From: an uncultured Verrucomicrobia subdivision 3 bacterium
Lineage (GTDB): Bacteria; Verrucomicrobiota; Verrucomicrobiae; Limisphaerales; UBA11358
Length of the DNA stretch: 23,799 bases
Direction of reading: 5' to 3'
NCBI GenBank assembly: GCA_903921455.1
Contig: CAIXPZ010000235.1
Coordinates: 1-23,799 of the forward strand
Under the pieces are notes generated by a model, which saw nothing but the letters and a program-made list of their open reading frames with translations, was not told the DNA's origin and ran no database searches. Positions 6,873-23,799 of this stretch are shown one piece after another; positions within the stretch are counted from its first letter, which is position 1, and every line of letters starts with the position of its first letter. The position numbers and the translations under genes are program-made.

Positions 6873-8591
6873 ATGAAAACAACCTGTTACACCCTGCTCA
6901 TCGGGCTGACCTGCGTGCTGACTGCCGGAGCGCAAACCAACTCGGCAGCCCCCTCGCAACCCGTCGAGGCGGCCAGCGCGCCGGCAACCGTTCCGGCCGA
7001 AAGCATTAACGCTGCGCCGCCGGCCACAGCCGAGGCGGTGCCTGCGGCTAACACCAATGCCCCCGCCACCACGGCTGACAGTGCCACCGCTGCCCCGCCC
7101 TCCATGGCTGCCGTCGGCATTCCGCAGATCAAGTTTTCCGATGTGCCCATCACCACGGCCATTGAAAACCTGGCGCGCTTGGCCAACATCAATTACATGC
7201 TGGATCCCAAAATCGGTTATGGTCTGCCGGATGCGAACGGCCAGATGAAAATCGAACCGACCCTTTCCATTCGCTGGGAAAACATTACCGCTGAAAATGC
7301 GTTGCTGGCCCTGCTGGATAATTACAACCTTCAATTGATTCACGACAAGCGCACTGGCATCGATCGGATTACCATGAAAGATCCCACGGCCCCGCCGCCG
7401 TTGTTCACCAAGGTCATCCAGTTGAAATACGCCAGCGTTTCCAATCTCGTGGATGCCGCCCAATCCGTCCTGACGGACAAGCGCAGCAAGGTGTTGACCG
7501 ACCCGCGCACCAGCCAATTGGTGGTGGTCGGCACCGATCCCGAGCAGCAGGCTGTTGATACCTTGGTCAATCAGCTCGACAAGCCTACCCGGCAGGTGTT
7601 GATTGAAACCCGCCTGATTGAAATTTCCAGCAATCCCCGAACCCAAAAGGGCGTGGATTGGACCGGCACCCTTCAGGCCCAGCAAATCACCTTTGGCAAC
7701 GGTAACTCGTCCGGTTCCTTTGAAACAAAATTCCCCGGAACCGGCGGAACGGATCCCGCGGGTGTGCCCACCTCCGGCGGCTCCTCCAGCACGGTTGGCA
7801 CCGTTGTCAACCAGGTTGGTAACGGTGGCTTCTCCTGGAACACCAAGGGTGGCACGACTCCGGATATTGGCTTTTTGAACGCCAGTGGGTTGAGCGCCGT
7901 GCTGTCCTTCTTGAACTCTTCCGCCGATGCCCAGATTATGTCCACCCCTCGGATTGTCACCCTCGATAATGAGGAGGCTCAACTGTCAGTGACCCGTGGT
8001 TACCCGGTCTTCAACGTCTCGGCGGGCAGCCAAAATTCCTCTGGTGGTTCTTCCGTGGCCTATTCGAACGTCGGCACCATCTTGCATGTGACTCCGCGAA
8101 TTTCGGCCAACGATTACATCTGGCTCAAGGTCCGGCCCGAGGTCTCCAGCTTTTTTGGCAATTTCTCCCAAACCACGGGCGGCGGCACCACCGCCGCCGG
8201 GAACCCGACCACGCAAACCTTGACCGCGCCGATTTTCGACGTCCGCACCATGACCACTCAGGTTTTGATTCCCAACTCCAACACGCTGGTGTTGGGTGGC
8301 TTGGTCCAGGACAATCCCAAAGGCACTTATACGAAAGTTCCCCTGTTAGGCGACATCCCCGGACTAGGCTTTATGTTCCGCAGTGAAGACAAAGAGTTGA
8401 ACAAAGACAACCTCTTGATTTTCATCACCCCCACGATTGTCCGGGACAATGATTTTCAAACTTCTACGTCGGGAGATTTCTTGAAAAGCAAGCCCGGCGT
8501 CTTAAAGCAGGCTATGAACCCAAATACCGCATGGGATAGCGCGATGCCCGCCGGCAACTGGACTGACCCCGTTGATGCCAATTCCAAGTAG
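6873..8591 (+). CDS. Outer-membrane secretin, GspD/PilQ family
   Basis: A 572-residue exported protein that should form the outer-membrane channel for the pilus or pseudopilus. A signal peptide (1-20, ending TAGAQ) precedes an Ala/Pro/Thr-rich linker (about 21-80). An STN/N0 domain follows (about 82-115, IPQIKFSDVPITTAIENL), then an N1-type ring domain (about 178-252, ending DKPTRQVLIETRLIEIS). The secretin barrel domain comes next, with the signature VPLLGDIPGLGFMFR near 488-502 and LLIFITPTIV near 514-523. Only one N1-type domain is evident, so it is short compared with GspD (about 650-700) or PilQ (about 700), and no AMIN domain is seen. The start ATG at 6873 has no good Shine-Dalgarno. 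Whether it serves a pilus or a secretion system cannot be settled here. Confidence 0.93.
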   Translation: MKTTCYTLLIGLTCVLTAGAQTNSAAPSQPVEAASAPATVPAESINAAPPATAEAVPAANTNAPATTADSATAAPPSMAAVGIPQIKFSDVPITTAIENLARLANINYMLDPKIGYGLPDANGQMKIEPTLSIRWENITAENALLALLDNYNLQLIHDKRTGIDRITMKDPTAPPPLFTKVIQLKYASVSNLVDAAQSVLTDKRSKVLTDPRTSQLVVVGTDPEQQAVDTLVNQLDKPTRQVLIETRLIEISSNPRTQKGVDWTGTLQAQQITFGNGNSSGSFETKFPGTGGTDPAGVPTSGGSSSTVGTVVNQVGNGGFSWNTKGGTTPDIGFLNASGLSAVLSFLNSSADAQIMSTPRIVTLDNEEAQLSVTRGYPVFNVSAGSQNSSGGSSVAYSNVGTILHVTPRISANDYIWLKVRPEVSSFFGNFSQTTGGGTTAAGNPTTQTLTAPIFDVRTMTTQVLIPNSNTLVLGGLVQDNPKGTYTKVPLLGDIPGLGFMFRSEDKELNKDNLLIFITPTIVRDNDFQTSTSGDFLKSKPGVLKQAMNPNTAWDSAMPAGNWTDPVDANSK

Positions 8592-8619
8592 TTTGACCAT
8601 TTTAAAAACCAAAACGCCT

Positions 8620-11600
8620 ATGAATGCGTCAACTTCCACCCGGTTGTTAAAATGCTGGAAGCATTATCACGTCTCAAACTTGCGACTGGCCCTGATGTCA
8701 GCCTTTATTTTGGCTGGTATGGCTGCCTTTTCTCAAGCCACCGTCACCACGCTTACCGATTCCAATCACGGCAAACCCGGCTACAAAAACGGCAACACCT
8801 TTTCCGCCGCCCAGTTCCGTGTTCCATCAGGTATAGCCCTTGATCCCTCTGGGACCACCCTGTTTATGGCGGATAGCTCAAACAATGCTGTTCGCATGGT
8901 AAATTACCTGGGAGACAAGGCCAATAGCTTCACCTATAGCGCCTTCACCAACAAGGATGGCATCAGTCAGCCGGTTGATGTTGCCATTGATGCCAACACC
9001 AACATCTACGTTTTGAATCGGGGCACGGGGAAAGATGGCACCATCCTCAAATTCAACGGATTATACTACCTCAACTACGGAATCAAACAGTTGCTCACCA
9101 CCAACGCGTCAAAACTGACCAACGCTACCGCCTTGGCTTTGGATGGTGCCGCCAACCTTTACGTCACTATCCAGAGCAACACCGTCATCCGCATCACTGG
9201 CAGCAGCAATCAGGTTGTTGGCATAATCACCAACAAAGGCACATCCCTTCGCGGCATCGTTGCCTTGAGCAGCGGAAATCTGGCACTGACCGACGCCGGC
9301 AATAACGGCATCTGGGTCATGAATCCGGCTAACACCAATTTAATTGGTAACACCGTCAAGCTGACCGGCTTTAATGGTGCCGCTGACGTATTAGGTCCGC
9401 CCGCCTATGCCGCCTTTAACCGCCCGGAAAAAATCGCCAAAGCCGGCAACGGCTATCTGGTGGTGGCCGATTACAACAATAACAAGTTGAAAATCATTGA
9501 TTCTGGCGGCTATGTCACCCGCCTCTACGGCGTCAGTTCAACTTACTGGGGCACCTCCTACCCTGGTTGGCATGATGGCACCGTGAATCCAACTGAGTCG
9601 ATTGATCCGGTTGAAGCCCGCCAGCCCTGCGCTGTTGTTGTGGCCAACGATGGAACCGTTTATGCCACCGAAATTTACTATTCGCTGCTTCGCGTAGCCA
9701 CTGGCACGGGCTTAACTGGTCCTCCACCGCCGCCGCCGACCGCGCCCAGTATCATCTCGGTCATTACCAACTTTGGCCAGGTAACCTTGACGTGGTCCAC
9801 GGTAAATAGCGCCACCAACTACTATCTAAAGCGTTCAACCAACAGCGGCGGAGCTTATTCGACTATCTTCAGTGGCTCTTCCACCAATTACAACGACACC
9901 AATATTGTCAACGGCACGACTTATTATTATGTCGTGTCTGCAATCAACTCCAGCGGGGAAGGCCCGAACTCGGCTGAAGTTAGCGCCACGCCCCTTGCCC
10001 CCCCTGCCCCAACTTTTGTCACGGTCATCGCCAATTATGGCGTTGTTAGCTTGACGTGGTCAACCGTTCCAGGCGCCAATAGTTACAACTTAAGACGGTC
10101 CACCACTAACGGCTCATATACACTGATTACCAGCACCGGCGGCACCAGTTATAACGACACCACTGTCATTAATGGTTCTATTTACTATTATGTTGTCTCC
10201 GCCGTGAATCCAGGCGGGGAAGGCTCTAATTCGGCGTATGTCATCGTTCAACCGCCTTATCCCCCCGTTCCGGATCCGCAAATCGGCTACGTTGACTTTC
10301 CGTCCACCGCCACCCCCGAATACACTTCGGTCTTTCACCCGGTGTCAACCTATCAGTTTTATAATGACGCTAACATTGTGATAAAGGGCACCGATGGCAG
10401 TGGCACCTATTACACCTACGATGGCACCATTCCAACCACAAATTCCTCCTCCGTTTTGTCGGACTATCATGACGGCATTACTTCCAAAGGCGGACTGTCG
10501 CCCTATCTTGTCAACCATGTTGAACCCAATTTTACCATCGAGGCATTGGGGGCGCAGACCAACCATCCCAACAGCGCCGTGGTGCAGGCAACCTTCCAGT
10601 TCATCACCGGCAACCCGAACATCATTGGCAACAACGCCGCCCAGTTTAACATCAGTGACATCACGGCCAACTGCGACCTCTATTATACCATTGATGGGTC
10701 CGAACCGAACGCCACCAATGCCAGCGCTGTCCATTTGAGCCCGGTCGCCACCCCTACAAATCTTTGGACGGTAGGGTTTCCCGTTATTACGAACACGACG
10801 TTAAAAGTGAGGGCTTTCCGCGCCAACTATCAGCCCAGCGCCATTGTGACCACCACTTTTTCCGCGTCAAACTTTGTGGCTAACGTGATCAGCTTCGGCT
10901 TTGGTAACGGGGAGGCTTCCAGCGACTTTGTCGCGTCACCCGGTCAGTTTTTTTACGCACCCGTCACTTTAAGTCCGCTCTCCGATACGAAGATTTATAG
11001 TTTGCAGTTCAATCTTACCGTAACCAATGGCGGCGCCAATCCAGGTCCGGCGGTGGGCCCCGGCCTATATGGATTTGCCTCAATGCTCACCAAGCCCGTT
11101 CCGTCCGACCCCACTGTTTACGAGACGATTCCGCCGGCAATGTTTGTATCTTCGAATAGCATCGTGAATCCTTACCCGATAAGTCTGGATGGTTCAACCA
11201 ACTTTGCCAGCCTCTTATTCAATGATCCCGTCAATAACTTGCTGGGGGTTGGCTGGCTCGAACGGTTAAGTAAAACCAATCTCTATGACACCACTAAACA
11301 GGATCTTATTCTAACATCCCAAGCTCATGATACTGTCTTTTTGCAAAGCGGCGGCAAGGTGATTCTCGGCGGATATGCTGTCCAAATTCCGCCCAGCGCC
11401 ACCAATGGACAAACTTACCAAATCCAGATCGGCCGCCCGTCAGCCACCTCAGACGGCATTGGCGCGCCTGGTTCGGATGTTTTTATTTCCGCCCCGACCA
11501 ATGGTTCTCTCGGCGGCGGTAACGCCCTGAATGCCCTGAAATATATTACGATTGGTCAGCGCAAATACTTGGCGGGCAGCGTTTATCCTTTCCGGTGGTT

Positions 11601-12879
11601 TAATGCCGGGGATTTTGGTTCCACCAATTTGGTCAGCGCCGACGTTATGCAGGTTTTTCAATCAGCCATTTATTCATGGAATTATCCGGCCGAAGGTAGC
11701 GATTTCTTTGATGGCATGGACTCCTGTGGCAGCGTTGGAGTTTTGGATGCCAACCCGGCTGACGCTAATTACAACTTTTACACCAATGCTTATACGAGCC
11801 TAAATCTGGCGCAGCTGAATGCGTTGTTTGACGGCGGCGATACCAACATCAATCAAATTGCCTTTGGTGATGGTTATCTGGATGTCTGCGACGTTTATGT
11901 CACCTTCCGCCGCTCGCTGGATCCCAGCCTTACCTGGTATCGCCGATTCTGGAACAATGGTCAACGCGTGGCTGACACCGGTCTCCCCAACGTCGCGAGC
12001 CACCTTGCGGCCAAGGCTGCCTCATCCTCAGTCATAAAACCAAGGTTTGGCTCGACCGGTTCGGTTGTTTCGCCGCAGGTCAATTTCACCGCTGGCGATA
12101 TTCAGGGTTCTGCCGGTCAGGTCGTGTCGGTTCCCATTTCCGCAACCATCCTGGGCAGCTATCCGCTCCGCGTGCTGATGCTCAACCTGACGGTTGAACC
12201 GCTGGATGGTTCACCGGCCATTACGGCCCCGGTTCAATTCAACCAGACCGCCCCGCTCGGCGCCCCCTACACCACGGATGCTCAAGGCAACGGGAATTTC
12301 TCTGCTGTCTGGCTCAACAGCACCAACGCGGGTCTGACCGGAACTGTCACCCTCGGCAATCTGCTGATCACCATACCCGCCAGCGCTTCGAGCAATGCCG
12401 CTTACGCCGTCCATTTCGACCATGCCTCCGCCTCGCCCAACGGTTTGGCCTCGTTCCCTAAAAAGACCCTCACCGGTCTCATTACCTTGTCCACCCGCAC
12501 CAACTCCAGTTTCGGGGATGGCATTTCTGACTCCTGGCGGCTGCGTTGGTTTGGCTCCGTTAATAACTACCTTTCGCTGTCCAATGCCTGCCCGTCGGGT
12601 GATGGTATCAGCAACTTCAAGAAATTTGTTGCCGGGGTTGACCCCAACGTCGCGAATGATTTCCCCAGCGTAAATGCCATTACGCCGGCGCCGGCCGGAT
12701 ATTCAGCCATTCATTGGCCGACGGTTCTGGGCAAGCAATACGTCATTGAACGCACCAGCAGTCTCTTCTCCGGTCCGTGGACTGCCATCGGCACGAATAC
12801 CGGCACGGGTGGGGATATGGAATTTGACGACGCCACCGGTGGCACGGTGAAATTCTACCGCGTGCGTATTCTCCCGTAA
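8620..12879 (+). CDS. Giant exported multidomain protein (NHL-like, FN3, chitobiase-type, dockerin-like, C-terminal verrucomicrobial domain)
   Basis: A 1419-residue protein. I place the start at 8620, not at the upstream in-frame 8572, because 8620 lies after the secretin stop and gives a usable signal peptide (about 1-40, LALMSAFILAGMAAFSQA). Domains in order: NHL-type propeller repeats (about 65-362, e.g. PSGIALDPSGTTLFMADSSN); a PPPPPP linker (~368); two FN3 repeats (377-457, 463-543); two chitobiase/hexosaminidase C-terminal-type repeats (YYTYDGTIPTTNSS ~597, LYYTIDGSEPNATN ~686); beta-rich cohesin-like stretches (~750-980, ~1153-1280) flanking dockerin-like Ca-loop segments (GDFGSTNLVSADV ~997, GDGYLDVCDVYVTF ~1083). 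Near 1300-1343 is a thrombospondin-3-like DGISDSW...GDGISNF segment. The last ~60 residues, ending FYRVRILP, resemble a tail seen on many exported Verrucomicrobiota proteins. The gene follows the secretin by 28 nt and is likely a substrate or surface partner of the apparatus. Confidence 0.85.
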   Translation: MNASTSTRLLKCWKHYHVSNLRLALMSAFILAGMAAFSQATVTTLTDSNHGKPGYKNGNTFSAAQFRVPSGIALDPSGTTLFMADSSNNAVRMVNYLGDKANSFTYSAFTNKDGISQPVDVAIDANTNIYVLNRGTGKDGTILKFNGLYYLNYGIKQLLTTNASKLTNATALALDGAANLYVTIQSNTVIRITGSSNQVVGIITNKGTSLRGIVALSSGNLALTDAGNNGIWVMNPANTNLIGNTVKLTGFNGAADVLGPPAYAAFNRPEKIAKAGNGYLVVADYNNNKLKIIDSGGYVTRLYGVSSTYWGTSYPGWHDGTVNPTESIDPVEARQPCAVVVANDGTVYATEIYYSLLRVATGTGLTGPPPPPPTAPSIISVITNFGQVTLTWSTVNSATNYYLKRSTNSGGAYSTIFSGSSTNYNDTNIVNGTTYYYVVSAINSSGEGPNSAEVSATPLAPPAPTFVTVIANYGVVSLTWSTVPGANSYNLRRSTTNGSYTLITSTGGTSYNDTTVINGSIYYYVVSAVNPGGEGSNSAYVIVQPPYPPVPDPQIGYVDFPSTATPEYTSVFHPVSTYQFYNDANIVIKGTDGSGTYYTYDGTIPTTNSSSVLSDYHDGITSKGGLSPYLVNHVEPNFTIEALGAQTNHPNSAVVQATFQFITGNPNIIGNNAAQFNISDITANCDLYYTIDGSEPNATNASAVHLSPVATPTNLWTVGFPVITNTTLKVRAFRANYQPSAIVTTTFSASNFVANVISFGFGNGEASSDFVASPGQFFYAPVTLSPLSDTKIYSLQFNLTVTNGGANPGPAVGPGLYGFASMLTKPVPSDPTVYETIPPAMFVSSNSIVNPYPISLDGSTNFASLLFNDPVNNLLGVGWLERLSKTNLYDTTKQDLILTSQAHDTVFLQSGGKVILGGYAVQIPPSATNGQTYQIQIGRPSATSDGIGAPGSDVFISAPTNGSLGGGNALNALKYITIGQRKYLAGSVYPFRWFNAGDFGSTNLVSADVMQVFQSAIYSWNYPAEGSDFFDGMDSCGSVGVLDANPADANYNFYTNAYTSLNLAQLNALFDGGDTNINQIAFGDGYLDVCDVYVTFRRSLDPSLTWYRRFWNNGQRVADTGLPNVASHLAAKAASSSVIKPRFGSTGSVVSPQVNFTAGDIQGSAGQVVSVPISATILGSYPLRVLMLNLTVEPLDGSPAITAPVQFNQTAPLGAPYTTDAQGNGNFSAVWLNSTNAGLTGTVTLGNLLITIPASASSNAAYAVHFDHASASPNGLASFPKKTLTGLITLSTRTNSSFGDGISDSWRLRWFGSVNNYLSLSNACPSGDGISNFKKFVAGVDPNVANDFPSVNAITPAPAGYSAIHWPTVLGKQYVIERTSSLFSGPWTAIGTNTGTGGDMEFDDATGGTVKFYRVRILP

Positions 12880-12897
12880 GCTTTGAAATAAACTCAA

Positions 12898-12930
12898 CGG
12901 CGTGCCTCTCCCGGCACGCCGTTTTTATTT
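12898..12930 (+). terminator. Rho-independent terminator of the pilus/secretion cluster
   Basis: A perfect 9-bp GC-rich stem (12898-12906 with 12913-12921, CGGCGTGCC/GGCACGCCG) encloses a 6-nt loop TCTCCC and is followed by TTTTTATTTT on the + strand. It lies 18 bases after the giant gene's stop. The stop codon of the convergent DUF971 gene (12925-12927) is inside the T tract, so the hairpin separates the two convergent genes; the - strand side has a poorer U tract. Confidence 0.93.
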
Positions 12931-13227
12931 TGCCGCTGCCACCCGGTTCAGATATTCGAACGAATATATGCCGGTGTTATGCCCATCCGCCCAGGCCGGC
13001 TGGATGGCATAGCCGCCCACGCTGGTGATTTTAACCAGTTCAAACGCATTTGCTGCGTAGGGCTTTTCTGGGTTTTTGTAGAGGTTGCCCAGAATGTCCA
13101 CCTCGCCCTTGCAGCCGGCGCAGGGACACGCTTGTCGCAGTGTTTCCAAAGTGATAAAGCTTTCCGTGCCGTCGGCCCATTTCACCGCCAGTTCGTTCCC
13201 GATCTGTTGAATATCCAGTGGTCGCAT
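12925..13227 (-). CDS. DUF971 domain protein (gamma-butyrobetaine hydroxylase-like N-terminal domain)
   Basis: A 100-residue protein made of a single DUF971 domain: WADGTESFITLETLRQACPCAGC (the conserved 'W.DG....' and 'CPCA.C' segments, about residues 18-39), then YAIQPAWADGHNTGIYSFEYL with the conserved 'W.DGH.TGIYS....L' (about 73-93). The Cys and His residues suggest a metal site, as in the zinc-binding N-terminal domain of gamma-butyrobetaine hydroxylase. Stand-alone DUF971 proteins are often near Fe-S cluster carrier genes and their role is not well defined. It is divergent from the Nramp transporter, with under 100 bases between likely starts. Confidence 0.9.
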   Translation of the reverse strand: MRPLDIQQIGNELAVKWADGTESFITLETLRQACPCAGCKGEVDILGNLYKNPEKPYAANAFELVKITSVGGYAIQPAWADGHNTGIYSFEYLNRVAAAK

Positions 13228-13313
13228 GGCGGGAGGTTATTTTCTCGGGGGCCCGCCGTCCACACATTCCGATTTCATTGACTCGCCGCCGGCAGCCGGT
13301 AATCTGCTTGTCG

Positions 13314-16685: not shown

Positions 16686-17558
<873 letters not shown>

Positions 17559-17654: not shown

Positions 17655-17729
17655 GACCCTATGGTCTAGCGGTTAGGACACCTCCCTTTCACGGAGGTAG
17701 CCCGGGTTCGATTCCCGGTAGGGTCGCCA
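17655..17729 (+). tRNA. tRNA-Glu (anticodon UUC)
   Basis: A complete cloverleaf: acceptor stem GACCCTA (17655-17661) with TAGGGTC (17719-17725), discriminator G17726 and encoded CCA (17727-17729). The anticodon stem is CCTCC/GGAGG around the loop CTTTCAC, with anticodon TTC at 17688-17690, and the T arm is CCGGG-TTCGATT-CCCGG. All stems are perfectly paired, so the gene is intact despite being the probable integration site of the adjacent element. Confidence 0.97.
17689..17729. other. Probable attachment site within the 3' half of tRNA-Glu
   Basis: The serine recombinase frame on the - strand ends inside this stretch. Its last residues (ATLPGIEPGLPP) are the reverse complement of the T arm and acceptor end of the tRNA, and its TGA stop is the complement of 17689-17691 in the anticodon loop. 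Recombinase genes that abut or read into a tRNA 3' end are typical at the end of an integrated element. I could not find a second copy of the tRNA end elsewhere in the window, so the partner site lies outside it or has decayed. Confidence 0.45.
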
Positions 17730-19281
17730 TTATTGATTTATCGTTCCCATTTTGGGAAATCACATTGAAAAACGGGCATATTTCAGTGGTTCCATAATTT
17801 CCATTTGCAAAACTCACACCTTTCGGGAAAAAAAGCTTTTGCAATCGTTGTTTTTGTTCATCTGAAGCCTCCAACCACAGTCGTGCCGCATTTAAAATGA
17901 TGTGCTCGGCGAAATTGAGCACTGATTCCACATCGTAGCCTTCGAGTTTTGCGTCCCGTTCCTGAATTTCGGCCAAAGTGATTTGTTCATTGAGTTTGTC
18001 AAGCTGACGCTGGTAGGTGACACGTTCAATCGATTTATCGTAAATAAAAGCTTCCTCCAGCCGTTCCTTGCGTTCTTTCAAGGATTTAATGTTCTGTTGC
18101 AAACTGGCGTTCAGGAGATGATTTTGCGTTTGCTTTTCCTTCCAAACATCCAGCAGGATTTCATTAAATAACTTCAGATATTGTGGTTTTGGTTGAAGTC
18201 CTTCCAAATAAAACACAAAGCCATTTTCCAACTTGGATTTGGTGATATTGGTACCTATACATTGTTTGTTTTGGCATCGGTAATTCGCATATTTTTTGGT
18301 TCTTCCTTTGGACCAGCTTGCCGTCAGCGGTCTGCCGCAACAGCCACATTTCACGAAATGCCGTAGCGGAAAATCAGGGTGACTGCGTAGGCGAGGCATT
18401 ACGCTGACACGTTTCCCGTTGAGAATAGATTCCACTCGGTCAAACACTTCTTGACTGACCAGCGGCTCGAAATCTCCACGTTTCGTCAGACTCCAGTTTG
18501 CCGCACCCACCCATCCCGCATAAACGGGCTTTCGTAGCATTTGCTCAAAAGTTTGGATGGAGACACGCTTGCCCTTAATCGTGCGCAGCCCAGCAGCATT
18601 AATTTTTTCGAGAACATCCTGTTTTGTATAAAGCCCTGTGGCAAACAATTCAAAGGCCTGCTTTACCAAATGTGCTCGTTCGGGATCAAAAATCAGACTC
18701 CCGCCATCATTACTCGTTTTTCTATTTATGTAGCCAATTGGAGCTTTGAAAGTCCATTTGCCCGCTTGAATCGCCGCCTTCATTCCGACAATGGTGCGCT
18801 CGGTTCGCATGTCGTTGTCGAATTGAGCGAAGCATGACATTAGAGACTCCATGAGCTTACCCTGAGAACTATCGTCGAAACTCTCTGTTACACTGCGAAG
18901 CGAAATCCCCAATGAATTCAAGTACGCTCGCGTCTGAGAGTGGTCATGGACGCTGCGAGCGAAGCGACTCACTGAATAGACCACAACCCACTTGATTAGC
19001 CCTTTGTTCTCGCGGCAATACGCGAGCATTTTCTGAAACTGCGTCCTGTTAACTGTTTTGGCACTTTCCCCCTCCTCCACGTATTCTTTAATCACATTAA
19101 AGCCGTTCTTGGCGCAATAATCGCGACAGGCATTTCCTTGTGTGCTCAAACTAAAGTTCTCTACTTGATCTTTTGTAGAAACACGGCAGTAAATCACAGC
19201 TTGCCCCACAGTTTCCTGCACGGGTGCGATCCCTTTATGATTTAGGGAGAAATTGTTCGAGTTGGTTTTTAAATGATTCAT
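17689..19281 (-). CDS. Large serine recombinase (site-specific integrase)
   Basis: A 530-residue large serine recombinase. The resolvase catalytic domain has IYCRVSTKDQ with nucleophile Ser35 and the later arginine-bearing YSVSRFARSVHDH segment. A Recombinase domain follows (about 175-300, IGYINRKTS...VYAGWVG). A zinc ribbon, CGCCG...CQNKQC, lies near 326-355, then a coiled coil (about 395-450). It cuts and joins DNA through a phosphoserine link and probably moved the adjacent DNA. Without the tRNA-derived tail the protein would end near residue 516. A small ORF lies 18 nt upstream. No Shine-Dalgarno is obvious before the ATG at 19281. Confidence 0.94.
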   Translation of the reverse strand: MNHLKTNSNNFSLNHKGIAPVQETVGQAVIYCRVSTKDQVENFSLSTQGNACRDYCAKNGFNVIKEYVEEGESAKTVNRTQFQKMLAYCRENKGLIKWVVVYSVSRFARSVHDHSQTRAYLNSLGISLRSVTESFDDSSQGKLMESLMSCFAQFDNDMRTERTIVGMKAAIQAGKWTFKAPIGYINRKTSNDGGSLIFDPERAHLVKQAFELFATGLYTKQDVLEKINAAGLRTIKGKRVSIQTFEQMLRKPVYAGWVGAANWSLTKRGDFEPLVSQEVFDRVESILNGKRVSVMPRLRSHPDFPLRHFVKCGCCGRPLTASWSKGRTKKYANYRCQNKQCIGTNITKSKLENGFVFYLEGLQPKPQYLKLFNEILLDVWKEKQTQNHLLNASLQQNIKSLKERKERLEEAFIYDKSIERVTYQRQLDKLNEQITLAEIQERDAKLEGYDVESVLNFAEHIILNAARLWLEASDEQKQRLQKLFFPKGVSFANGNYGTTEICPFFNVISQNGNDKSIMATLPGIEPGLPP

Positions 19282-19299
19282 ATTAATTCACATTGCGGT

Positions 19300-19605
19300 T
19301 CAATATCGTATTTCAATTTTTGCACCGATGGCTTGCTGGCGGGCGAGTGAGACTGCCGAAAACAGCAGCCCGTATTTACCAAACACGGAAGAAGGTTTAT
19401 CCACGAGGAGGCGTAATGAAGCAATCCCAGCAAGCATAGGAGAATTCATAATTTGGCCATGCAGTCGCCGTTTTTCAGGAAGTCGCTCAACAACTACACG
19501 GGCAAAATCATAAAGGGCATCTCGTATTGCTTCCAAATCAGCATCGATTTGTGGTGCATCACCGCCCAAAATTCGCCTGCAATTTTTTATGTTTAGCATT
19601 GGCAC
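19300..19605 (-). CDS. Small hypothetical protein encoded with the serine recombinase
   Basis: A 101-residue protein, probably real because it is co-directional with, and 18 nt from, the recombinase. The N-terminal part, CRRILGGDAPQIDADLEAI and RDALYDFARVVVERL, is a charged two-helix segment of a kind I associate with small ORFs beside recombinases, but no function is known to me. The C-terminal half (SPMLAGIASLRLLVDKPSS...) has no recognisable motif. The first start is a GTG at 19605, with an ATG two codons later. It may be an accessory or directionality factor, or only a hitchhiker; this is a guess from position. Confidence 0.6.
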   Translation of the reverse strand: MPMLNIKNCRRILGGDAPQIDADLEAIRDALYDFARVVVERLPEKRRLHGQIMNSPMLAGIASLRLLVDKPSSVFGKYGLLFSAVSLARQQAIGAKIEIRY

Positions 19606-20196
19606 AAGTCTTTTATGTATTTTTTATCGCCATTGGGCGCAGCTCCGCCCGCACAATCCGAGCACGTAAATGCCTTGAATTCATATATTTCCATAATTCG
19701 TTTTCGAGGAACCCTCCTCGCGCATTTGATAGTTTATTATCAGAAGCACCTTGGCCCGCCACAACCGGCGAGCTAGGTAGCTGTGCATCCAAGACTTATC
19801 GGATACAGCTCCAAATGCTGGCGTGAGTAGATCAAGAAAAAGTGTGAAAGTCAAGGAAATACGGGGTATTCACAGCCTCAAGCGCACTGCCGGTTCAACC
19901 AGTGACATACTTTGGAAGCCACGCCTCTGACTAACGCAGTTGCATGGTGGAAGCCCGTGGCGCAGTGACAAACGATGGTGGGCTATTTCTCGTGCAATCA
20001 GCCATGGTTTAAGAAGAATGCGTGGATAAATTTTCCAGTTTTTACTTTTTGAAATCCATTTCGCCCAGTGGCTACAATGGTTTTTAGATGAATTTTCTGC
20101 GGACAACCCCCTGTAAATTATGGTCTCGCAAAGTCAGTGAAATTTGGTAACGTAAGAGAAGTTGCGGGGAGGACGGCTCCCCAATAACAATTTACA
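19606..20196. other. Gene-free leader/intergenic region between the recombinase operon and the excisionase-like gene
   Basis: I see no credible gene here. The stretch holds a perfect 6-bp hairpin at 19705-19720 (CGAGGA/TCCTCG, loop ACCC), a bulged 10-bp inverted repeat at 19779-19810 (AGCTGTgcATCC with GGATACAGCT), and a possible - strand promoter at 19826-19854. A second GC-rich hairpin, GGGGAG/CTCCCC, lies at 20166-20182. The inverted repeats sit where the 5' leader of the recombinase operon would be, and could be operators or att-arm sites. Confidence 0.45.
19826..19854 (-). promoter_or_regulatory. Possible sigma-70 promoter for the recombinase operon
   Basis: On the - strand, TTGACT (complement of 19849-19854) is followed after 17 bases by TCTACT (complement of 19826-19831). 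The -35 box is good and the -10 box is weak. The leader to the small ORF at 19605 would be about 215 bases and would include the hairpins described for this region. Confidence 0.35.
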
Positions 20197-20238
20197 AATA
20201 CACATCATTTCCTCACGGAAGTGGTGTGTATTTTTTTT
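20197..20238 (+). terminator. Terminator-like long hairpin directly before the excisionase-like gene
   Basis: A 16-bp stem, 20197-20212 with 20217-20232, contains two G-U pairs, closes on the tetraloop TCAC and runs into eight T residues (20231-20238). This is an intrinsic terminator by form. It ends only 9 bases before the ATG at 20248 and no + strand gene lies ahead of it. It may end a small RNA that includes the hairpin at 20166-20182, or act as an attenuator for the downstream gene. Confidence 0.6.
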
Positions 20239-20247
20239 GAGCCAATT

Positions 20248-20523
20248 ATGAAAGAAAACATCATTGAAAGCGGAACGCCGCAGATAGCAGACCGAGTCGC
20301 TGGTTTGCCGGTATGGGTTCGCCCACCCCGAAACTCTTTGCAAGAATTTTACACTGGGCTTTCCAAAGCCAAACTTTACGAACTTGCGACCAAGGGACAC
20401 ATCAAAAGCCGGAGCATCCGCGAGGCTGGCCAGACCAAAGGAACGCGCCTTTTTAATTTGAAATCGGTTCTAGATTACATCGATCAATGCGGGGACGGTC
20501 ATGATATTACCCCTGTTAAATAA
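20248..20523 (+). CDS. Excisionase-like winged-helix DNA-binding protein
   Basis: A 91-residue protein. Residues about 34-78 (FYTGLSKAKLYELATKGHIK, then SRSIREAGQTKGTRLFNLKSVLDYID) match the MerR-like excisionase / helix-turn-helix_17 pattern: a recognition helix 'S..KLYEL...G.I', a wing with 'G.RLF', and a closing helix 'L..YI'. Such proteins act as recombination directionality factors or small regulators on mobile elements. I use the ATG at 20248 because the earlier start at 20221 falls inside the terminator-like hairpin. It is on the strand opposite to the recombinase and 0.6 kb from the accessory ORF. Confidence 0.75.
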   Translation: MKENIIESGTPQIADRVAGLPVWVRPPRNSLQEFYTGLSKAKLYELATKGHIKSRSIREAGQTKGTRLFNLKSVLDYIDQCGDGHDITPVK

Positions 20524-21644
20524 GGTCAGATACGTTGCCAACTGGCAGCAGAACATAGGGTTGAAGTTTCTTAATGAGGGTTCATAATTTTAATCGAAGT
20601 AAAAGCTATGGAGGAAAATAATGAGTGTTTCGCTGTGCAAACTGGCGTTCCAAAAACTGTTTATGGATTCCTGCCGACTGGCGTATATCGCCCAACGCAT
20701 CCTCTGTTGGCTATGAATTTCCTGACCATCCATCGGCTTGCCGGTGCAGATGTGTTGGGTTTTTGAAATGAAGCCCGACTCTCGTGGTGAATTAAAAACG
20801 AGGGCGCGAATGGCCGCGTGAAGGCCAGTTTATTCTAAGATAGTGCGAGCTGTCCATGAATGAACCGTGTAACCCCAGAGAATCGCTTTAGGCGGCTCTG
20901 GAGGCGAAGGAATGGCGCGGGGCCGAGCAACAGCCCAACCCCGCTTAATGAAGCTGCTGATGGTTCTTTTTACCGTCAGCAGGGTGTAACTCCGGTCAAC
21001 GAAATTAGACCAGCGTAGGCAGTGGCCACCATTGCGCGAGGGAGTTCAGAGTGCGAAGCGACCGACCGACGGAGGTTCCGCCAAGCAAATCACCGCTCAG
21101 ATTTTACTCTGGGGGTGGTTTGTGGCTCTCTCCCTCCCTCTAGAGTTACCACCAAGAATCCAACCAGAATCCAGTAACCAGCAACCGGATTAACTAGCTG
21201 AGGATATATGGCTTTGGCTCCGCTTGGCAGGATGCGGGGAAAAATCTGGTTTCGGTGGAGGGGATTCGACAATTGACGAAGGTTTTGATAACCCAGAAAT
21301 AAAACACCATGCCCGTGCGGCGGCGTTCTGTGAAGCCGCATTACCATGCGACCGACTTTTACCCGCGATATTCAGCGGCTGAACAGGTTGCCAAGAGCAC
21401 ATGGAAACTGGCGCTGGAAAACTAGAACCCAGCACCCAGCCTCTGGGTGAGCTTTGGATGAGATTTCATCCCAACCCAGAACTCGTCTGCTGGCGTGGCT
21501 CTGATCACCCCCACCAGTCAGGCTGGCCTGCTGGCCGCTGGCTGGCCTCTGGCTGGGCGCATTGGTGGAAACGGTACCTTGAGGCTCTGGGCGAGCTCTG
21601 AGGGGCCGCTGGAGGGCTTGGTGGGGCTGTTGTAGGAAATCCCC
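20524..21644. other. 1.1-kb stretch without a protein gene
   Basis: No ORF here looks coding on either strand. The first half (20691-21035) is a dense chain of hairpins annotated as a candidate structured RNA. The second half holds a small hairpin at 21434-21448 (ACCCAG/CTGGGT), a CCAGTAACCAGCAACC-type simple sequence near 21170-21187 and a CTGGC-rich low-complexity tract near 21518-21556. A short fragment near 21195-21384 translates without stops for about 60 codons in one + frame and could be gene debris; I recognise no family in it. Confidence 0.5.
20625..21060 (+). ncRNA. Candidate large structured RNA, HEARO/omega-RNA-like
   Basis: At least eight helices follow one another with no coding frame. 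They are: 20691-20701 with 20749-20759 (11 bp, one G-U), enclosing CATCGG/CCGGTG (20731-20746); 20773-20785 with 20798-20805; TGGCC/GGCCA (20811-20827); CCAGAG/CTCTGG (20875-20901) with an inner CGC/GCG; GCGGGG/CCCCGC (20917-20944); 20954-20964 with 20972-20982 (11 bp, one G-U); GGTC/GACC (20994-21011); GCAGTGG/CCATTGC (21019-21035, one G-U). The order, and segments such as AAGCCCGACT and GGCCGCGTGAAGGCC, remind me of HEARO RNAs, which guide IscB nucleases. That resemblance is from memory and unverified. No IscB ORF is present, so it would be an orphan. Both ends are approximate. Confidence 0.45.
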
Positions 21645-21923
21645 TCAATTCATCCGCCCACGAAGCGAACGGCAATCCGCGAGACGCCGCTTGGTTTCTT
21701 GAATGAGGTTGCGAAGCTCGATGCAAAAAGGCATTAATTTGTAATCATCATCAGCGCGGTCCAACAGGGCTGCCAAATCGCGTTTCTGGCGTGCTATCCG
21801 ACGATTCAGTATTTTGATCCAAGCTTCGTTGGTCATGGGAACGGGCTCGGTATCCTCCAAAAAGTCCTGATACGCTTCATTGGAGATTTGGTTGAATTTT
21901 TCGATGGTCATTTGGTTTTTCAT
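21645..21923 (-). CDS. Small hypothetical protein with coiled-coil character
   Basis: A 92-residue protein starting MKNQMTIEKFNQISNEAYQD. I prefer the ATG at 21923 to the in-frame start at 21950 because a GGGAGGA Shine-Dalgarno lies 12-13 bases upstream of it, overlapping the longer version. The middle and end (NRRIARQKRDLAALLDRADD, then ELRNLIQETKRRLADC) are charged, helical and probably coiled-coil. No signal peptide or membrane segment is visible, and I do not recognise the family. It lies alone between the structured-RNA region and a gene-free repeat region. Confidence 0.5.
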   Translation of the reverse strand: MKNQMTIEKFNQISNEAYQDFLEDTEPVPMTNEAWIKILNRRIARQKRDLAALLDRADDDYKLMPFCIELRNLIQETKRRLADCRSLRGRMN

Positions 21924-21950
21924 GTTTGTTTTTGTTCCTCCCGCGTCCAT

Positions 21951-22456
21951 GCCGTTGCTGGCTGTGGCTACAAAATGTCAAAGCTAGCATTGGTTGATAA
22001 ACACGGGAAAATTGAAGAAATACTCCGAAAACTATATCGAGGGATTTGCTGACGCGATTATTGCTCTTGGCGGCCATCTATAGGCCCACCGCGACACAGA
22101 AACCGCTACATACAGCCATTGCCGACACAGAAACCGCCACATAGAGCCGCCGCTGAGACAGCTCTATACCTTTAAGGGATTTGGCAGCCAACGAATCTCG
22201 CTTGGCGCAATCAGGTGCCGCTCTTTCATAGAATCGTGCGGTTTCGTGACCATGGCAGTGGCGATAGCGCTCCAGATGTCCACTTTTTAAACACTTCCGC
22301 CCCTTCAAGGCATAAACCTCCCGTTGCCGCACAATCCCTCGGCACCGTTATTGGTTTGTATATTCCTTAGGCAGCGTAGATGCATTTCACTCGTCTGATG
22401 ATTTTTTCTCTATTGAGGATTATGACAGGATAGGCGGATTTGTTGGTAAAGACAAT
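21951..22456. other. Gene-free region with a short tandem repeat
   Basis: No persuasive gene. An 84-codon - strand frame (22078-22332) exists, but a 31-base repeat that is not a multiple of three runs through its end, and its composition is unlike a real protein. The repeat at 22093-22148 is annotated separately. The last ~100 bases become AT-rich and probably hold the promoter of the gene at 22457, without a clear -35/-10 pair. Confidence 0.45.
22093..22148. repeat. Two copies of a 25-bp direct repeat, period 31
   Basis: GACACAGAAACCGCyACATA and a following sAGCC occur at 22093-22117 and again at 22124-22148, with two mismatches and a 6-base spacer. With only two units it is not a CRISPR array. 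It could be a protein-binding pair or a local duplication. Confidence 0.7.
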
Positions 22457-22852
22457 ATGACTACGAATGATGCCATAGAATTCGCACGAAAATCATTTGA
22501 GAAACTTGGATACAAAATTGAAGAATGTCACCTTAACGAAAACCCCGCAAGGGTTGAGGGTCCATTCGATCTTAAAACACTTGGACATATTCCTTTTTGC
22601 CGAGTTATTTGGCAAAGTCCAGAGGCAAATACCACTTCGGAACGTATGCGCGGCTACACTGTTCAATTCAATATTGATTTACAGAAGAAACTAATTTCGG
22701 GCATGTCATTATCTGGCACAAATTTTTTTCGCCCCAATCTTCAAGTTGATGTTAAGCCTGAATTTGAATCGGAATACCGAAAAAAGATTCAAAAACAAAT
22801 GACTATAAATACCAATTTTCCAGCACACTTAAAAAAACATTTGGATAATTAA
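22457..22852 (+). CDS. Hypothetical protein, soluble, 131 residues
   Basis: I do not recognise this protein. It starts MTTNDAIEFARKSFEKLGYK, an amphipathic helix. It continues with an alternating hydrophobic/polar central part (PFCRVIWQSPE, RGYTVQFNIDLQKKLISGMS) that suggests a small alpha/beta fold, and ends in a Lys-rich helix (YRKKIQKQM...LKKHLDN). No signal peptide, membrane helix or Cys motif is present. Base composition is clearly more AT-rich than the core genes, which suggests transfer. It converges on the coiled-coil membrane protein gene, with about 90 bases between stops and no terminator hairpin seen. Confidence 0.65.
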   Translation: MTTNDAIEFARKSFEKLGYKIEECHLNENPARVEGPFDLKTLGHIPFCRVIWQSPEANTTSERMRGYTVQFNIDLQKKLISGMSLSGTNFFRPNLQVDVKPEFESEYRKKIQKQMTINTNFPAHLKKHLDN

Positions 22853-22941
22853 TCCTAGATATTCCCTAATTGGTGTTGTCTGAAATACCTTTTCTGGATT
22901 ATCAGTTAATTCTTTTAGCTCTGATTTCAAGGTAATGTCTT

Positions 22942-23736
22942 TTATTTAATAAATTCCGGTAAAGTTAATCTTTGGGTGTCGCCCGAATCATTCATAATTA
23001 ATTCACTATTTAATTTAGGCACTCTTGTATACATATTCGTTTTTCTTTCATCTATGACATAATGATATGACACACTAAAATGATTTATATCGTAATAAGT
23101 AGCAGCCCCAAAAACTAAATTATAAAATGATGTGTGTCCCCAACTTCTTAATTCGAGTCTGGTAGTGGTATCTGTGAGAATTCTTTCTATGCTGCCTTCA
23201 ATCGGATAATGACTTAATCTCACAACAAAACCAAATGACTTGTTCGTTGTGTAAGTAATCATAAAATTATTGGTATCTGCGATAGAAAATGTTTCCGTAA
23301 CCGTCTTGCTATACAGGTTCTTTACCCAATAAGAAACGTCTGCTAATTCGACTTGCTGGGCGGTTAAATTTGTTTGTGCCGTATTCAAACCAGATTGCAT
23401 TAAAGAAATCTTCTCAAATTGGTTTGTGATGTCGGCTTGCTGGCTCGTAATGCTCAATTCCGCGCCTTGGATTCTTTTTTGAATATCCGCTAATTCTTTT
23501 TGATAGCTATCAATTTTGCTTTGGTGGCTTTCTAGCTGGCTGTGCATTTCTTTTGTAGTTTTTTCAACCATGTTTACTTGTTCGCCAAGTGCCGACAATT
23601 TAGAACTGATATTTGAGGCAATGAAAGATTTCGCCCACCCCTGAAACCAAGGAAAGGAACAGAGCAAAATTAAAGCCGACACCTGTGCGTCCAAGTTAAT
23701 TGTGAGACCATATTTTCTGATAATTGGTTGACACAT
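22942..23736 (-). CDS. Hypothetical membrane-anchored coiled-coil protein
   Basis: A 264-residue protein of unknown function. An N-terminal hydrophobic segment (about 16-36, AQVSALILLCSFPWFQGWA) may be a membrane anchor or uncleaved signal. It is followed by a long coiled coil with heptad-like Gln/Ile/Leu spacing (about 40-137, including EKTTKEMHSQLESHQSKIDS), then a beta-rich C-terminal domain (about 145-264) with repeated aromatic/polar strands (FMITYTTNKSFGFVVRL, HFSVSYHYVIDERKTNMY). It is AT-rich, like its neighbour. The start at 23736 has no clear Shine-Dalgarno, so a later start is possible. No homologous family comes to mind. Confidence 0.7.
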   Translation of the reverse strand: MCQPIIRKYGLTINLDAQVSALILLCSFPWFQGWAKSFIASNISSKLSALGEQVNMVEKTTKEMHSQLESHQSKIDSYQKELADIQKRIQGAELSITSQQADITNQFEKISLMQSGLNTAQTNLTAQQVELADVSYWVKNLYSKTVTETFSIADTNNFMITYTTNKSFGFVVRLSHYPIEGSIERILTDTTTRLELRSWGHTSFYNLVFGAATYYDINHFSVSYHYVIDERKTNMYTRVPKLNSELIMNDSGDTQRLTLPEFIK

Positions 23737-23799
23737 TTGTTTTTTGGTTTTGGCGGACGGCGATCAAGTTCTGGCAGCGGAGCCAGGCTTCCACAGTGA

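Follow-up and report, generated by a model that had tools for sequence, protein, structure and literature searches.

The question raised by this locus is what to make of a long, hairpin-rich stretch lying between small genes, within the 23,799 nucleotides from an uncultured Verrucomicrobia subdivision 3 bacterium that were analysed here (the window). A first-pass annotation had described it as a chain of stems resembling HEARO, the omega-RNA of IscB nucleases, and failing that as a large RNA that might be new. The signal from folding and the genomic setting are plain to see, and the feature is probably a structured RNA, if not a proven one. On balance, we think that the region is a real RNA under selection and, with appreciably less confidence, we tentatively favour a stand-alone, regulatory structured non-coding RNA borne by a mobile element. 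Both estimates were kept down because the region comes only second on a regular grid of folding windows and because three terminator-like sites lie inside it. If it is real, a mobile element of a little-studied phylum carries a large orphan RNA, for which possible pairing with the integrase mRNA is one concrete lead that can be tested; the resemblance to HEARO failed the covariance model test.

The genes around it run in the order tRNA-Glu, large serine recombinase, 101-aa frame, helix-turn-helix (HTH) gene, candidate RNA and three frames without clear family (Table 1). The recombinase matches the Pfam families Resolvase (E 9.2e-37), Recombinase (E 1.7e-11) and zinc ribbon (E 6.5e-9) as well as a PHROG integrase (E 1.5e-87). 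Since its gene reads into the tRNA-Glu gene from the opposite strand, the locus appears to be a putative integrative element for which the tRNA gene would be the integration site. A search for a second attachment site, as repeats of at least 14 bases from position 17400 to the end of the window, found none. The HTH protein scores E 3.6e-4 with Pfam HTH_17, which is below the cut-off of that family, and E 0.037 with a PHROG excisionase.

Table 1. Features of the candidate RNA and of the putative element that carries it (window coordinates; p, pair probability)
Feature	Position	Strand	Basis or remark
tRNA-Glu (TTC), probable integration site	17655..17729	+	ARAGORN; Rfam tRNA 68.1 bits
Large serine recombinase, 530 aa	17689..19281	-	3' end within tRNA gene
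Partner of 20636-20650	18098..18112		15 bases identical on + strand
91-aa helix-turn-helix protein, perhaps excisionase-like	20248..20523	+	Pfam HTH_17, PHROG excisionase
Promoter-like hexamer pair, 9/12	20561..20588	+	consensus scan only
Possible 31-codon frame in 5' tail of the RNA	20621..20716	+	GGAGG six bases before ATG
15-base antisense match to recombinase mRNA	20636..20650	+	shuffle test, found after the fact
Structured RNA candidate	20690..21137, ends uncertain, perhaps 20596-21140	+	folds, window scan, boundary choices
Stable helices, first five	20731-20746, 20754-20779, 20828-20865, 20839-20854, 20875-20901	+	
Stable helices, other five	20883-20895, 20917-20944, 20954-20982, 21085-21123, 21096-21113	+	
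10-bp hairpin	20754..20779	+	p 0.96-0.99 in four spanning folds
Branched domain	20804..20870	+	contains GGCC hairpin 20811-20827 and hairpin 20828-20865
Hairpin of 6+5 bp	20875..20901	+	p 1.00 and 0.90 in five folds
GCGGGG/CCCCGC hairpin	20917..20944	+	p 0.90-0.98 in five folds
11-bp hairpin	20954..20982	+	p 0.99 in four spanning folds
3' domain, mostly beyond the coordinates first annotated	21038..21136	+	inner hairpin 21085-21123 (10+6 bp)

The span originally annotated, 20625-21060, folds at -168 kcal/mol on the plus strand (z -3.88, equalled by none of 100 shuffles), its minus strand reaching z -2.30 (2/100 shuffles equally good). A 400-base grid covering both strands supplied 118 windows of 436 nt, to which six placed on the region were added. 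Among these 124, the two top scores belonged to 20738-21173 (+, z -5.91) and 20690-21125 (+, z -5.48), followed by the unrelated 12825-13260 (+, z -4.93) and by 20625-21060 (+, z -4.27). When the 118 grid windows are taken alone, the best one in the region (20825-21260, +, z -3.78) ranks second behind the unrelated place, which spans the end of a 1435-aa frame (8572-12879) and an opposite-strand gene (12925-13227). The plus strand was better than the minus in all four long windows tested, the minus-strand scores being -2.96 for 20738-21173, -1.83 for 20690-21125, -2.60 for 20625-21060 and -2.23 for 20825-21260. With 25 more choices of start and end, z was always negative (-2.49 to -5.76).

These figures bear on the most serious rival, according to which the region is not a functional RNA and folds well by chance, being either non-coding DNA rich in hairpins and in G and C or what is left of a decayed gene or element. 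That an unrelated place scores so well and pushes the region into second position on the grid is what this explanation would expect, but it sits less easily with the two top z-scores of the 124 windows, with the preference for the plus strand in long windows and with helices that are robust to the choice of ends. We regard it as less likely than a stand-alone RNA, though not by much.

At a smaller scale the region is not outstanding, its signal being spread and weak in short windows. Eleven 120-nt windows starting between 20680 and 21080 gave modest plus-strand scores (z -0.1 to -2.6), and the minus strand beat the plus in three of them; z -3 was passed on either strand by 8/100 windows of 120 nt, only one of which lies in the candidate region, by virtue of its minus strand. 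A function at the DNA level, as single-stranded hairpins at an origin of transfer or replication, would be consistent with these three short windows and with the folding of the minus strand of 20738-21173, but the long windows favour the plus strand and no relaxase or replication family was found in the six element frames, which makes this explanation very improbable.

Ten helices are present in each spanning fold whatever the ends, with a mean pair probability of at least 0.90, and the formation of two others (20780-20803 and 20804-20870) varies with the ends chosen. The latter is the outer helix of the branched domain, in which hairpin 20828-20865 is robust (p 0.99-1.00), while the GGCC hairpin, one of the sequence blocks singled out by the first-pass annotation, has p 0.43-0.96 and is absent from the best fold of 20625-21060. 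Likewise, in the 3' domain the inner hairpin is stable (p 0.95-0.98), whereas the closing helix (21038-21044/21130-21136) ranges from p 0.09 to 0.81 depending on the ends. The chain of stems reported earlier is present, and structured as judged by folding energy, but several of its details have to be amended. The structure extends past 21060, where it had been ended, to about 21137. Of two stems described as 11 bp long, there is one simple 11-bp stem (20954-20982), the others being of 10 bp (20754-20779) and of 6+5 bp (20875-20901). The G-U pairs, which had been viewed as a mark of selected RNA structure, do not clearly discriminate between the strands: they make up 21/154 pairs on the plus strand and 18/132 on the minus for 20690-21140, and 17/128 against 10/118 for 20752-21137, where the share is higher on the plus strand. 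Their similar share on the two strands of 20690-21140 is why G-U pairs were left out as evidence of RNA selection.

The proposed identity was that of a stranded HEARO or omega-RNA lacking an IscB or IsrB gene and served in trans. Its size and its multi-stem, non-coding form are indeed shared with HEARO (RF02033). However, an Rfam scan of 20000-21700 at E up to 10 did not match that model, three other matches (E 0.7-2.7) being to eukaryotic families and taken as chance. Over genomes of the order, the HEARO model found a full-length candidate in 1/146 (E 8.8e-12, below the gathering score), and none in 14 control genomes. This candidate (locus L130, 1501-1715, minus strand; 62.3 bits and E 1.7e-11 with Rfam, against a gathering score of 83) indicates that the model is able to detect members in this order, with the proviso that it is the sole positive and itself falls below the gathering score. 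In its alignment, in which 32/211 positions are elided, the printed HEARO consensus has no counterpart of two of the three blocks on which the resemblance was based, GCCCGACT and GGCCGCGTGAAGGCC, and displays others, including UGACCAG, GGGCUACGUU and CACCCUGGGAUG; the third, GCGGGG/CCCCGC, is not distinctive since the consensus has a similar G/C-rich helix. The claim that no RuvC/HNH protein follows was borne out, neither the six element frames of 17.7-23.7 kb nor nine shorter frames around the RNA containing one, and this absence of a nuclease gene is a further difference from HEARO. According to one report, RF02033 matches just 65% of the 5' UTRs of HEARO nucleases (PMC9755519), so that the lack of a match is by itself not proof and a small opening is left. 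HEARO identity was nevertheless rejected, on the grounds that the region is unmatched at E up to 10 by a model that is positive elsewhere in the order, and we give a stranded HEARO hardly any credence. The fallback reading of a possibly new large RNA still holds, on purely thermodynamic evidence.

Large ornate RNAs such as GOLLD and ROOL offer another comparison, for which the context was drawn from PMC12286853. Like these, the candidate is structured, with many stems, and borne by a mobile element that is bordered by a tRNA gene. It is, however, shorter and unmatched by the GOLLD and ROOL models of Rfam, its element is classed here as a putative integrative element and not as a phage, and the tRNA gene, some 3 kb away, is probably a mere insertion site. 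Membership of this group is thus improbable. When the whole stretch was compared with Rfam, the tRNA alone reached its gathering score, and there was no group I or II intron, RNase P or tmRNA.

Relatives of the candidate were sought in several ways. By blastn, the candidate RNA was found in 0/13 near genomes, and 11/320 genomes of the order gave matches at E up to 0.01, each 20-45 nt long and falling in various parts of the query; the five of these eleven that were inspected lie, by eye, in ordinary genes and none is credible. Two single-sequence covariance models were used, R1 (20752-20946) and R2 (20948-21137), over genome sets that overlap and with strict filters in both genome runs. R1 matched one of the 320 genomes of the order (locus L132, 21.5 bits, E 0.0024 per genome) and none of a phylum sample of 387. 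Apart from one difference, a 22-base block close to the GCGGGG hairpin is common to L132 and the candidate; L132 was taken as chance, by judgement, since about 0.75 such matches are expected over 320 genomes and it overlaps two open frames, of 108 and 100 codons. R2 matched 0/166 genomes. Over fetched loci and sources, R1 (37 of them) recovered the window itself and only one other locus (L129, 9.1 bits, E 0.49), and R2 (38) nothing besides the window. Single-sequence models are of low sensitivity, and as they were run without a divergent positive control a diverged family might be missed. Phage and plasmid records gave no blastn match at E up to 1. In viral contigs, six DNA patterns gave one match (L131), rejected as chance, and two protein scans gave no relative. 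Of two translated frames used as probes, 20860-21015 had no match and 20608-20763 recovered the locus alone.

The neighbours of the candidate RNA led no further. Relatives of the HTH protein at E up to 1e-5 are present in 51/320 genomes of the order, and 26 of 30 fetched loci were matched by blastn, solely in the HTH gene and never in the RNA. Relatives of the recombinase at a strict E up to 1e-60 occur in 3/320 genomes of the order, on contigs without similarity to the candidate RNA, and 672/50,697 phage records contain a match to it, each below 60% identity. That no credible relative emerged from any search made, and that the 30 HTH-relative loci share the HTH gene only, both speak for the chance folding discussed above; a tblastx comparison with two relatives' contigs, in which there was no similarity outside the HTH gene, was counted against it. 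That no homologue, and hence no covariation, could be adduced also counts against the stand-alone RNA.

Whether the stretch is coding has a qualified answer. The statement that it holds no coding frame is upheld in so far as no convincing family was found in the scanned frames: nine frames around the candidate RNA gave a single weak Pfam match (E 0.066), two compared with PHROGs gave none, and the 52-codon frame 20608-20766 had no family match in either library. It has to be tempered by the 31-codon frame preceded by GGAGG at 20621, which fits a dual-function RNA encoding a short peptide ahead of a long, structured regulatory 3' part. This idea is weakened by the finding that an equally good frame arises in 59/1000 shuffles, and by the fact that the overlapping 52-codon frame matches only the locus itself in a large protein collection; we deem it a shade less probable than a GOLLD- or ROOL-like RNA. 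The 52-codon frame occurs there on six contigs, which means that faulty assembly of one contig does not account for the leader, at any rate. As frame 21645-21950 is on five contigs, with a single entry that is a 92-aa version of itself, and neither frame has other relatives, this suggests a locus that is real and rare.

A point in favour of the stand-alone RNA is the promoter-like pair ahead of it, one of five sites found by a consensus scan of 19600-22000, where 1.8 are expected, and the same interval has six terminator-like sites for 3.4 expected. Three of these, on the plus strand, lie inside the candidate (20741-20758, 20811-20827 and 21096-21113) and would, if functional, count against one continuous transcript, nor does any of them point clearly to a 3' end.

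As to mechanism, there is a single lead, a perfect 15-base complement. Positions 20636-20650 are identical to the plus strand of the recombinase gene, which is encoded on the minus strand, and so are complementary to the recombinase mRNA. Shuffles of 20596-21180 reached 15 bases in 14/2000 cases against the element (17655-23799), in 6/2000 against the recombinase gene and in 50/2000 against the whole window, the corresponding counts for the tail alone (20596-20737) being 4, 3 and 9 of 2000. A parallel exists in satellites P4, phiR73 and PLEs, in which RNAs, including an inverted-repeat transcript in PLEs, are reported to have antisense matches to gene leaders (PMC7567579). Like these, the candidate would be a non-coding RNA that an integrative element carries and that is complementary, over part of its length, to one of the element's genes; it differs in that its single 15-base stretch falls within the coding sequence of the recombinase mRNA and away from the start, whereas the published ones match leaders. 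The match was found after the fact, and antisense control of the recombinase by the candidate RNA is unlikely.

The preferred reading, a stand-alone non-coding RNA, may be spelled out as follows. Its plus-strand transcript would start near 20596 and end near 21140; it would belong to an integrative element that sits at tRNA-Glu, and it would regulate this element. More loosely, its less structured 5' tail may pair with element transcripts, that of the recombinase first, and its folded 3' part may stabilize the RNA or bind a protein. The boldest version, in which a new class of large structured RNA, carried by a Verrucomicrobia tRNA-Glu integrative element, has its first member here, with a 5' tail that controls the serine recombinase and a folded body acting separately, is unlikely, if marginally less so than we would grant antisense control as such to be.

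A few other observations were made along the window. Ahead of the HTH gene, 20049-20247 contains a promoter-like site (10/12) followed by a 17-bp hairpin and a run of eight T; this run stops nine bases short of the start codon, taking ATG 20248 as the beginning of the HTH gene. This looks like an attenuator-like leader of about 150 nt, or a small RNA, and a terminator-like hairpin is found upstream in 2/16 placeable HTH relatives (30 tried). In several of the 16 listed HTH-relative loci, the HTH gene is followed, by eye, by primase- or helicase-like frames of integrative elements. Further downstream, a 31-nt unit is present in two tandem copies that are 84% alike (22092-22153), and a 264-aa protein (22942-23736, minus strand) has weak coiled-coil-type matches only, in three libraries. 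Finally, the assignment of the window to subdivision 3 is backed by its ATP:guanido phosphotransferase, which we take to be McsB and which shows 92-93% full-length identity to three MAGs of that group (L001, L003 and L052).
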